From positions 1 to 64,000 of the forward strand of contig JARLIH010000366.1 of NCBI GenBank assembly GCA_031291845.1: DNA of 64,000 nucleotides. Reading direction: 5' to 3'. Source of the stretch: Isosphaeraceae bacterium (lineage in GTDB: Bacteria > Planctomycetota > Planctomycetia > Isosphaerales > Isosphaeraceae). Shown here piece by piece: positions 1-3,779 of the stretch. Numbering within the stretch: position 1 is the stretch's first letter; every line of letters begins with the position of its first letter. A program made the position numbers and the translations under genes. The notes beneath the pieces were generated by a model. The model saw only the letters and a list, made by a program, of their open reading frames with translations. It was not told the origin of the DNA and did no database searches.

Positions 1-640
1 ACAGGTTCGCGCCGTCACCGGGGTAGCCGATGAAACCCTTCTCCTTCGCGAGCCCGATCAGCAGCGGTAGGAAGCCGGCACGATCGGTGGTGCTGTGCGC
101 GATGGTAGGAATCCGGACGATCGACGACCGCACGCCCCGCTCCGCGAGGCCGACCACGGTGAGCTCCACGATGTTACGAACACGCAGGGAACCCTTGTAC
201 TGATCGCCACCGGGGGGAAGGGCCGGATGCTCCTCTGTCGCCGGTCGTCCCAAGAAGTGGGCCCCAGGGGCTGGCCAGCCTATGTTTGTGGGCGAGCCAA
301 TGCTCCCCGACACGACCAACGGCTTTCCGGTCCCCGCCAGTGCCTCGCCGTACGCGAGCATGATCTGGTGCTCCGCGGCGGCCACTGCGTCAATCCCTCC
401 GGAGGGAAGTAGGTCTTGCCTGTGCGCGACATGGATGACGCCGTCGGACTCCGCCGCCGCCGCCTTGAGCCCATCGAGGTCGGAAATATCCCCGCGACGC
501 ACCTTGGCGCCGAGCGAGGACACCGCCGCCGCGGACTCGTCGGATCGGGCCAGGCCTGTGACATCGTGGCCGGCGGCGATGAGCTCGGGGATGATGTACG
601 AACCAATATGGCCTGTCCCGCCGGTGACGAAAACATGCAT
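1..640 (-). CDS. SDR-family NAD(P)-dependent oxidoreductase, 3' end cut by window edge
   Basis: About 213 codons are visible and no stop is reached before the left edge, so the gene is partial here. The N-terminus carries the glycine-rich dinucleotide motif VTGGTGHIGSY, which starts a Rossmann fold, followed by an acidic/basic pattern (GLARSDES) and GDISD, as in extended or atypical short-chain dehydrogenases that act on small carbonyl substrates or nucleotide sugars. I chose the ATG at 640 because it places the glycine motif four residues in; the ATG at 636 is in another frame. It lies 46 bases downstream of the F420-reductase-like gene on the same strand, so the two are probably co-transcribed from the promoter shared with the divergent OhrR-like regulator. 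The substrate cannot be read from the sequence. Confidence 0.85.
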   Translation of the reverse strand, partial: MHVFVTGGTGHIGSYIIPELIAAGHDVTGLARSDESAAAVSSLGAKVRRGDISDLDGLKAAAAESDGVIHVAHRQDLLPSGGIDAVAAAEHQIMLAYGEALAGTGKPLVVSGSIGSPTNIGWPAPGAHFLGRPATEEHPALPPGGDQYKGSLRVRNIVELTVVGLAERGVRSSIVRIPTIAHSTTDRAGFLPLLIGLAKEKGFIGYPGDGANL

Positions 641-686
641 TTCCTGCTCCTCGTGAGTGATGTGAGAAGTGGTGCGCCGGGCGCGC

Positions 687-1322
687 TCAGCCGAGAAGGC
701 TGACGCCGATCGAGAAGTGTGTGTGGTTGATGGAGTGGGCGACGAGGCCCAGCGACAGAAGGCAGACGTGCTCCAGCGTCCGCGCCATGGGCAGCGGCCC
801 GGTATCCATCGGGCGTAGTCCGAGGCTCTTGATGAACGCCGAGACGCGTGCCTTCGCCTCCGCGTCGTCCCCGGCGATGAATACGTCCAACGGGTGGCCT
901 TCGGAGGGACCGGCAGCCAGGACGTGGGAGAACTGGGTGTTGAACGCCTTGACGACATCCGCATCGGCAGGGGCGGCTTTGGTGATCTCCTGCGCGCCGA
1001 AACTGCCCTCAGGGGTGACAAAGCTCATGTGGTCGGAGGCGACGGGGTTGGTGATGTCTACGAGGAGCTTGCCCGCCAACCCTTCACCGTACTGCTTCAC
1101 CACGTCGAGAACGGCTGGGTAAGGGACCGCTAGGATGACAATGTCCCCGGCCGGGGCGGCGCCGAACGTGCCCGTCGTCGCGCCAGCTCCGACCCGCTCG
1201 GCTAGCGCCCGCGCCTTCGCGGCGTCGCGATTCATCAACTCAACGGTGTGTCCGGCCCTGGCTGCTAGGCCGCCAATCGCGGCGGCCATGCCGCCCGATC
1301 CGATGATGCTGATGATGCTCAT
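687..1322 (-). CDS. NADPH-dependent F420 reductase-like oxidoreductase
   Basis: A 211-residue protein whose N-terminus (MSIISIIGSGGMAAAIGG) is a dinucleotide-binding fold with GxGxxA-type spacing, followed by NRD, typical of NADPH-specific members. It matches the NADP-oxidoreductase/F420-dependent family (Pfam F420_oxidored) in size and in conserved blocks such as ILAVPY, DITNPV and KAFNT. Known members transfer hydride between NADPH and cofactor F420, but many bacterial relatives have no proven F420 role, so the cofactor is an inference. The ATG at 1322 opens the fold directly. The gene is divergent from the MarR/OhrR-like regulator, and paired dyads lie between them, so repression by that regulator is likely. 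It is followed by an SDR gene, which suggests a small redox operon. Confidence 0.85.
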   Translation of the reverse strand: MSIISIIGSGGMAAAIGGLAARAGHTVELMNRDAAKARALAERVGAGATTGTFGAAPAGDIVILAVPYPAVLDVVKQYGEGLAGKLLVDITNPVASDHMSFVTPEGSFGAQEITKAAPADADVVKAFNTQFSHVLAAGPSEGHPLDVFIAGDDAEAKARVSAFIKSLGLRPMDTGPLPMARTLEHVCLLSLGLVAHSINHTHFSIGVSLLG

Positions 1323-1363
1323 GTTCGTATTCTCCCCTTCCAGCCGGTCGTTTTGATCGTGTC

Positions 1364-1374
1364 CGATTTAATCG
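1364..1374. promoter_or_regulatory. Operator-like dyad, copy 1 (OhrR-type regulator)
   Basis: CGATTTAATCG is a dyad with 4-bp arms and a 3-base centre. It sits within a longer block (from about 1363) that recurs at 1419 with most bases unchanged, 56 bases apart. It lies between the F420-reductase-like gene and the regulator gene, just downstream of the predicted minus-strand -10 box, where a bound repressor would block transcription. Assignment to the regulator is inference from position. Confidence 0.6.
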
Positions 1375-1385
1375 AATGCGATTCA

Positions 1386-1413
1386 ATGCTAGCGTCCGAC
1401 TGGTGCAAGTCAA
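1386..1413 (-). promoter_or_regulatory. Promoter of the F420-reductase/SDR operon
   Basis: On the minus strand TTGACT (1413-1408) is followed after 16 bases by TAGCAT (1391-1386), close to the sigma-70 consensus. Transcription would start near 1379, leaving a leader of about 57 bases that contains dyad copy 1. Predicted from sequence only. Confidence 0.45.
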
Positions 1414-1419
1414 GAGCAT

Positions 1420-1432
1420 CCGATATAATCGG
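1420..1432. promoter_or_regulatory. Operator-like dyad, copy 2, overlapping a TATAAT box
   Basis: CCGATATAATCGG has perfect 5-bp arms (CCGAT/ATCGG) around a 3-base centre. A perfect TATAAT (1424-1429) lies inside it in the direction of the regulator gene, so a protein bound here would cover the -10 region: a classic autorepression arrangement. Transcription starting near 1436 also argues that the regulator is translated from GTG 1478 rather than ATG 1442. Confidence 0.6.
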
Positions 1433-1477
1433 GTACGACTCATGGTGGCCGCGACGTCACAAGCCCTGGAGGAATCC

Positions 1478-1945
1478 GTGACCCGTTCCCCAAAGGGCGA
1501 AGCCAAAGGCCCAAAACTCTCGAAGTTCCTGTGCTTTGCGGTCTATTCGGCCAATCTGGCGTTTGGCCGCGCCTACAAGCCGATCCTGGATGCGGTCGGC
1601 CTGACCTACACCCAGTACATCGCGATGGTGGCCCTGTCGGAGCAGGACGAGCAGACCGTGAGCGAGCTCGGAGAGAAGCTGTTTCTGGAATCCAACACGC
1701 TGACGCCAATCCTCAAGAAGCTGGAGCAGACTGGCAATATCAGCCGCATCCGCGATCCCGCCGACGAGCGGCAGGTGAGGGTGAGCCTGACCGCAGCCGG
1801 CCGGAGCCTGCTCAAGAACGATCTCGGTAGGGCGCTGGTCGAGTCCTGCGGCTTAGGTGACGAGTTCTCCGCCGTGCAGAAGAACGTCGTCAGGCTGCGC
1901 GACAATCTGCTACGCAACACCAGAGGCAAGCAGGATGCGACGTAG
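1478..1945 (+). CDS. OhrR-like MarR-family transcriptional regulator (two-cysteine type)
   Basis: A MarR-family winged-helix repressor. The N-terminal block FLCFAVYSA followed by LTYTQYIAM is the hallmark of OhrR, the organic-hydroperoxide sensor, in which the cysteine of this block is oxidised and releases DNA. With the GTG start at 1478 the protein is 155 residues, the sensor cysteine is Cys19, and a second cysteine is Cys124. The 105-residue separation equals that of the reactive pair recalled for Xanthomonas OhrR (Cys22/Cys127), so this should be a disulfide-type sensor. The helix-turn-helix and wing are TVSELGEKLFLESNTLTPILKK and DERQVRV split across residues 60-102. GTG 1478 is preceded by GGAGGA (1468-1473); ATG 1442 has no ribosome-binding site and would sit almost on the predicted transcription start. 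No ohr gene is visible; the divergent targets are an F420-reductase-like gene and an SDR gene. Confidence 0.85.
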   Translation: MTRSPKGEAKGPKLSKFLCFAVYSANLAFGRAYKPILDAVGLTYTQYIAMVALSEQDEQTVSELGEKLFLESNTLTPILKKLEQTGNISRIRDPADERQVRVSLTAAGRSLLKNDLGRALVESCGLGDEFSAVQKNVVRLRDNLLRNTRGKQDAT

Positions 1946-2762: not shown

Positions 2763-3779
2763 ATGAGGATCTGCGCCGCGATTGTCCTGGGATCTAGCTT
2801 AGGGTTCCCCGCGCTCGCCGCGGCCCAAGCGGCACCTGCCCCGCCCGCGGTTCCCGTCCCCGTCCCGGCTGCGACGCCCGCGGCCCCGGCGGTGAATCCG
2901 GCCCCGACGCCGCCCACGCCCCCGGCGTTCGTGCCGCCGCCGCCCCCCACGACGGCTCCTGCTACGCCCGTGCCCGCGCCGACCCCCGCTCCCGCGGCTC
3001 CCGCCCCCGCGGCATCGGCATCGGGCTTCGAGTTCGTCCTCGGCGGAGCCCAGAACGGCGTGGCGCCGTATACCCACGGCTCGGCGAAGACCGAGGAAGG
3101 GAAGATCGACGTCACCACGGAGCCGAACGTGCTCAAGCTGGTTCTCACCGGCGGCGTCGGGGCCAACGTTTTCTTCGGCATCGAGTCGACGGCCGTGCAG
3201 ACGTTCTCGGTCAACCAGGAGTTCGATATCACGTCGACGGACCCGGCGGTGAGTCAGGTCGTGCTGACGCTGGATAGCGGGCTGGTCGGGTTCGTTCGCG
3301 CGAAGCACAAGGGGTCGGCGTGCGTGCAGGTGGCCAGCGTGACCATCGCTCCGGTGGGCTGGTCGACGACGCCGCTCTCTTTGGCCCACCCCCAGCTCTG
3401 CGTGGCGGGGCCGTCCCCGGTCCATGGGGAGCCGGTCGGCATCCTGAACAAGGATCCGGTGTCGTCCATCACGAGCCCCCCGATGCCGCTGGGCCGCTAC
3501 GTGATCCAGGCCAACTTCTCCATCCAGGCGGACGCGTGCGGCTTCCTCGACGGACACTCCACGGCGATTTTCTCGCCGGAGCCCACCGAACTCGACCCCT
3601 GGGAGCGCGAGCACGACATGTTCAAGGGTGAGGACAAGGCCGGCTACGGCTTCACCACGATCCTCACGGCCTCGCCGGTGGACGGCAAGCCTGTCGCCAA
3701 CGCCTGGGAGAAGCACCTGAAGACGGTGAAAGTCGCCAAGCGGAACGCGAAGCCGAACCAGGACACCGTCACGCGCTGA
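2763..3779 (+). CDS. Secreted proline/alanine-rich protein of unknown function
   Basis: A 338-residue protein starting with a Sec signal peptide (hydrophobic AIVLGSSLGFPALAAA, likely cleavage near residue 21-22). A linker of roughly residues 22-87 is almost wholly proline, alanine, valine and threonine, as in proteins that stand off a membrane or cell wall. The remaining 250 residues form a globular, mostly beta-like domain with several cysteines (SACVQV, PQLCVAG, ADACGFLDGHS) that could form disulfides outside the cytoplasm. I do not recognise the domain. The ATG at 2763 follows a GGAGG in CCTGGAGGGTCC. It stands alone, convergent with xylose isomerase, and is closed by a perfect hairpin at 3811. 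Confidence 0.8.
   Translation: MRICAAIVLGSSLGFPALAAAQAAPAPPAVPVPVPAATPAAPAVNPAPTPPTPPAFVPPPPPTTAPATPVPAPTPAPAAPAPAASASGFEFVLGGAQNGVAPYTHGSAKTEEGKIDVTTEPNVLKLVLTGGVGANVFFGIESTAVQTFSVNQEFDITSTDPAVSQVVLTLDSGLVGFVRAKHKGSACVQVASVTIAPVGWSTTPLSLAHPQLCVAGPSPVHGEPVGILNKDPVSSITSPPMPLGRYVIQANFSIQADACGFLDGHSTAIFSPEPTELDPWEREHDMFKGEDKAGYGFTTILTASPVDGKPVANAWEKHLKTVKVAKRNAKPNQDTVTR

Follow-up and report, generated by a model that had tools for sequence, protein, structure and literature searches.

The left end of the window, i.e. the whole stretch of 64,000 nucleotides that was analysed, carries an OhrR-type regulator with its operators that appears to have been acquired horizontally and joined to a separate mobile reductase operon at the start codon of the operon, since the sensor with its operators and the operon trace to different sources. 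The window opens contig C216 in a draft genome of 9.7 Mb (G000), and the same hybrid occurs in two planctomycete genera. We consider it likely that the unit works as an OhrR-like redox switch that relies on a thiol and has had its target replaced, a switch of Bradyrhizobium descent having come to stand in front of the separate operon. The protein family, the operators with their conservation and the composite origin are read from the sequence, and the features are listed in Table 1.

Table 1. Coordinates of the divergent genes, predicted promoter and putative operator blocks in the window
Feature	Position	Strand	Remarks
NmrA/epimerase-type SDR oxidoreductase, N-terminal 213 aa	1..640	-	cut by contig start; complete 321-aa homologue in G028
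PF03807 (F420_oxidored) family NAD(P)-binding oxidoreductase, 211 aa	687..1322	-	first gene of divergent operon; 86.7% identity to Caballeronia pSBC2-4 protein
Putative operator block 1, GTCCGATTTAATCGAATGCGATTCAATG	1361-1388	+	has dyad CGATTTAATCG 1364-1374; matrix score 24.4; position conserved in orthologous intergenic regions
Predicted sigma-70 promoter of divergent operon	1386..1413	-	TTGACT (1413-1408), 16-nt spacer, TAGCAT (1391-1386); 1 found vs 0.6 expected by shuffling
Putative operator block 2, ATCCGATATAATCGGGTACGACTCATGG	1418-1445	+	has dyad CCGATATAATCGG 1420-1432 and TATAAT 1424-1429; matrix score 17.2; position conserved
OhrR-type MarR-family regulator, 155 aa, GTG start	1478..1945	+	Cys19 codon 1532-1534, Cys124 codon 1847-1849

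The regulator contains a MarR domain (PF01047, 5e-15) and its closest solved relative is OhrR of Xanthomonas campestris (2PEX/2PFB), the best PDB match in phmmer being 2pfb (3e-29; 4e-41 with a profile). Residues C19, Y23, Y33 and Y44 are invariant across 52 aligned rows, and C19 and the tyrosines correspond to the OhrR sensing site. The start position and the ribosome-binding site agree with those of the orthologues and of the second planctomycete genome (G028), whose gene starts with ATG. The sequence contains exactly two cysteines, C19 and C124. The description of an OhrR-like, two-cysteine regulator in the original prediction was thus borne out, and we classify the protein as a predicted OhrR-type MarR repressor. 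Against the NCBI OhrR equivalog model NF052638 it scored 107.5 bits, below the curated cut-off of 200, a shortfall that suggests an unconfirmed OhrR rather than an exclusion, the short name of the model, TransRegOhrRVib, pointing to a tuning on Vibrio. No ohr gene lies beside the regulator in the window; adjacency to ohr is usual for OhrR, though not strictly defining, with OspR and SydR as exceptions.

The region between the divergent genes contains two direct copies of a 28-bp block, the starts of which lie 57 bp apart, and the arms of both dyads measure 5 bp each. The two dyads had been predicted to lie inside a repeated block, and their letters and coordinates proved correct. The sites from which a weight matrix was derived all lay in front of orthologues in genomes other than this one; the matrix was applied to the window and the fetched loci, while the whole genome was searched by pattern only. 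Within the 64-kb window three hits scored above 8, all of them on the two blocks (24.4; 18.7 for block 1 on the other strand; 17.2), and in 1000 dinucleotide-shuffled versions of the intergenic region the top score was 8.9. The pattern search found the 19-bp core without mismatch at these two places only in the 9.7-Mb genome. The 11-bp dyad, with one mismatch allowed, occurred 6 times in the window against 2.7 expected; by itself the dyad is unimpressive, while the full block is far beyond chance. A literature search gave no papers containing CGATTTAATCG.

A single scan of GTDB genomes returned 42 orthologues from Hyphomicrobiales (L012-L053; 65-82% identity), one from an Obscuribacterales MAG (L011, 82%) and more distant relatives. 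When the dyads were sought upstream of these orthologous genes, the same twin 28-bp block was recovered from the ohr-ohrR intergenic region of Bradyrhizobium and its relatives, with the spacing and layout of the window: the block starts are 57 bp apart in most Bradyrhizobium and 56 bp apart in Aestuariivirga and in the Obscuribacterales locus. The rhizobial gene opposite the regulator belongs to the OsmC/Ohr family (PF02566) and is ohr, not an oxidoreductase or SDR gene. Ohr detoxifies peroxides, and in bacteria of the Bradyrhizobium type the switch normally induces it under oxidation. The fetched DNA of 40 of the 42 rhizobial loci carries ohr, either directly facing ohrR (23 loci) or within about 4 kb (17 loci), in line with the statement that OhrR usually governs ohr, and the non-facing ohr genes have a block pair of their own in those loci that were read. 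Since the twin block faces or accompanies ohr in the rhizobial loci, we infer that the two blocks together act as operator in an OhrR-ohr system.

The TTGAC of the divergent -35 is also conserved with the rhizobial loci, and the GTCAA of this element is invariant in 8 of 8 aligned intergenic regions. Block 1 overlaps and follows the predicted divergent -10, spanning its edge and the start region, with dyad 1 immediately past the -10, and the TATAAT sequence falls within dyad 2; the claim that the dyads cover the TATAAT of the regulator and the start region of the divergent operon agreed with these positions. This TATAAT is common to both planctomycetes. Rhizobia have TTTAAT at the same place and a -10-like TTTATAT further on, and the rhizobial -10 adjoining block 2 is not retained in the window. 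Between the two planctomycetes the blocks keep 48 of 56 bases, as compared with 48 of 67 in the spacer and reductase leader, a difference in conservation that is only suggestive. One arm is changed in each dyad of G028 (CGACTTAATCG and CGCTATAATCG; best scores 14.1 and 9.3), and operator function may be relaxing there.

As to DNA binding, the inducer, the role of C124 and the substrates of the enzymes, we infer the following course of events. The reduced dimer would occupy both 28-bp blocks; at block 1 it would cover the region just downstream of the divergent -10 and repress the reductase/SDR operon, and at block 2 it would cover the promoter of the regulator itself, resulting in self-repression. 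Oxidation of Cys19 by an organic hydroperoxide (or hypochlorite), after which a disulfide between Cys19 and Cys124 of the other subunit may form, would release the protein and turn both transcripts on. The induced reductase and SDR would most likely act on carbonyls or quinones that oxidative damage has produced, reducing these and not the peroxide itself. OhrR of S. meliloti (SMc00098, PMC3107159) is similarly a repressor released by oxidation, with two cysteines and two palindromic sites between divergent genes; however, its sites, GCAAATTAATTTTG and GCAAATTGCTTTGC, have another half-site and are adjacent to each other, and its target is ohr.

The regulator might instead bind the twin sites and mainly sense some other signal, such as hypochlorite, quinones or sulfane sulfur, as has been reported for SydR and other MarR proteins, an explanation that we regard as rather unlikely. 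The precedent is SydR of S. meliloti (SMa2020), an OhrR-like repressor that has two cysteines, two sites in a divergent intergenic region and a target gene other than ohr; its response is about 100-fold with NaOCl but only about 2-fold with hydroperoxides (PMC11633110). In the window, moreover, the target is not a peroxidase. Nevertheless, the close rhizobial orthologues face ohr, which favours hydroperoxide as the signal sensed originally, and SydR differs in its cysteines (C16/C114) and in its TATCGCGATA sites. SydR had also been considered as the closest relative, as it too faces a non-ohr gene, and was rejected on the same differences in sites and cysteines. Together with SydR, OspR of P. 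aeruginosa (PMC4999210) is OhrR-like with a main target other than ohr, the two targets being a putative lipase and gpx respectively, and both proteins use operators other than the present ones. A switch of the OhrR kind with a new target remains the reading that we prefer. We regard it as a real case of a conserved regulatory module in a new setting, the surprise being limited because OhrR-like regulators with other targets, SydR and OspR, are known (PMC11633110; PMC4999210).

The second cysteine was then considered by comparison with X. campestris OhrR, which shares with the regulator the sequence family, the sensing cysteine and tyrosines, and two cysteines 105 residues apart, and has a different target. 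The original prediction had equated the spacing of Cys19 and Cys124 with that of the Xanthomonas pair, which holds numerically, as the Xanthomonas cysteines are C22 and C127 (PMC11633110), but the profile alignment sets C127 against residue 122 of the regulator and C124 against S129, two residues past C127. A cysteine at the position of C124 occurs in 4 of the 52 rows, those of the clade made up by the two planctomycetes, L011 and Bradyrhizobium jicamae (L012), and in the other 41 of the 42 rhizobial orthologues the position holds T, S, V or I. Because of this distribution and of the profile offset from C127, the ancestral protein probably had one cysteine and C124 was regained later and in parallel. 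A disulfide between C19 and C124 is plausible by analogy, since second cysteines placed at positions 120-124 of OhrR from B. subtilis are functional, according to a study cited in PMC3107159.

An F420-reductase-like gene and an SDR gene had been proposed as the likely targets. A target operon other than ohr was supported by the comparative evidence, but the F420 reductase was not. The PF03807 protein scored 73.6 bits against the NADPH-dependent F420 reductase (npdG) equivalog, the cut-off of which is 149.8, and a search of G000 for F420 synthesis genes gave no match to CofD (TIGR01819) or to CofE/F420 ligase (PF01996); a role in F420 metabolism was rejected on these grounds. Its best PDB match is the dinucleotide-binding oxidoreductase 2raf. 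As the CofD and CofE searches came back empty, the protein is probably an ordinary NAD(P) enzyme, for which "F420-reductase-like" is only a family name. The genome also has an ohr gene of its own on contig C299 (L131 2410-2805), with 48% identity to Bradyrhizobium Ohr, an SDR gene following it and no copy of the operator.

The two parts of the unit show different affinities; neither the horizontal acquisition nor the composite make-up had been part of the original prediction. In the tree, the regulator is nested among Bradyrhizobium orthologues (support 97/93 and 99/88), beside B. jicamae and the Obscuribacterales protein. A cassette of the same two genes in the same order as the operon, PF03807 and NmrA SDR, was found in Caballeronia pSBC2-4, S. 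meliloti pSymA ABS7, Rhizobium T1473 and Streptomyces, at identities to the window of 67-87% for the PF03807 protein and 69-92% for the SDR. The Caballeronia plasmid operon matches positions 1-1324 with 88% DNA identity, the match ending two bases past the start codon at 1322, and the S. meliloti and Rhizobium operons match up to 1332 with 79-80%. Unlike the window, the proteobacterial copies face TetR (L114, L116, L146 and L151) or HxlR (L115) regulators, and neither matrix hits nor OhrR-type blocks were found in these TetR- and HxlR-faced loci. The operon is rare at strict cut-offs (4 of 398 Hyphomicrobiales and 2 of 399 Pseudomonadota genomes); no further OhrR-operator-reductase unit was present in the loci inspected in these two sets (1.5-kb flanks, L164 excluded), and the literature search brought up no paper on an OhrR that faces divergent SDR genes.

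G028, a near-complete genome from another genus of the same family (9 contigs, 3% contamination), matches window positions 1-1943 with 91% DNA identity over 1,943 bp, the match ending inside the stop codon of the regulator. It carries the SDR gene in full, with a SnoaL_2 protein encoded after it, and keeps a TetR of the operon-facing type, with an SDR, just beyond OhrR. Among the other 391 genomes sampled from the phylum we found neither a comparable regulator nor a close relative of the PF03807 protein, and in the family only G028 had such a regulator. The proteins of the unit are 94% (regulator), 89% (PF03807) and 92% (SDR) identical between G028 and G000, and since xylose isomerase reaches only 86%, the hybrid unit is younger than the split of the two lineages or has moved between them. 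The simplest history is an insertion of the OhrR/operator unit that separated the reductase operon from its former regulator.

The segment of 1.9 kb with which the contig begins could also be foreign to the planctomycete, by contamination or misassembly, and the contamination estimate of G000 (9.2%), the position at a contig end and the proteobacterial affinities speak for this. We hold it to be highly improbable, as the same contig carries a family-typical xylose isomerase with 93% identity to the copy of a same-genus genome, and the GC content of the segment is 64.1% against 65.1% in the adjoining DNA. Moreover, the same unit is present in the independent genome G028, and contamination was rejected on this evidence. 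A different objection would see regulator and operators as a remnant carried along by hitch-hiking, with self-control as the regulator's only role and the operon expressed independently. The partly decayed dyads of G028, the other regulators that face the operon elsewhere, and the TetR persisting nearby in G028, of the type opposite the operon in rhizobia, are in favor of such a remnant; yet the operon-side block 1 is the better site of the window and adjoins the only promoter-like site, and the regulator has stayed intact and more similar across the two genera than xylose isomerase. We judge the remnant unlikely, and consider that the acquired regulator probably governs the operon.

In the Obscuribacterales MAG (L011 1802-4480) the same OhrR and operator pair stand opposite SDR-SnoaL_2-PF03807 genes, the second instance outside Pseudomonadota in which this OhrR has no ohr with it. 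The SDR there is a different one, with 83% identity to the SDR encoded after ohr in B. jicamae, and the PF03807 protein is distant (31%). Tentatively, and with more doubt than confidence, we suggest that the Bradyrhizobium-type OhrR and its twin operator form a divergent promoter under redox control that is portable, that it moved into unrelated phyla (Planctomycetes, Obscuribacterales) and there came to stand before reductase operons in place of ohr, and that the target changed together with the gain of the second cysteine in just this lineage (B. jicamae ohr-SDR, Obscuribacterales SDR-SnoaL-PF03807, planctomycetes), making the switch reversible rather than sacrificial. The unit offers a case of natural regulatory rewiring by horizontal transfer, in which sensor with operators and operon can be traced to separate sources meeting at a start-codon junction. 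It also offers a natural transition from one to two cysteines among orthologues 65-82% identical to the query, the effect of which can be compared in natural neighbours instead of engineered mutants, and it would extend OhrR-type control to NAD(P)-dependent reductases.

Further along the window, positions 2763-3779 encode a protein of 338 aa that is rich in proline and alanine over a long stretch near its start and has no Pfam match. Closer to the regulator, about 300 bp past it and near the right edge of the acquired segment, a tRNA-Leu (CAG) gene lies on the minus strand (2253-2339); the opposite edge of the segment is off the contig, and this tRNA gene could be a candidate integration site.
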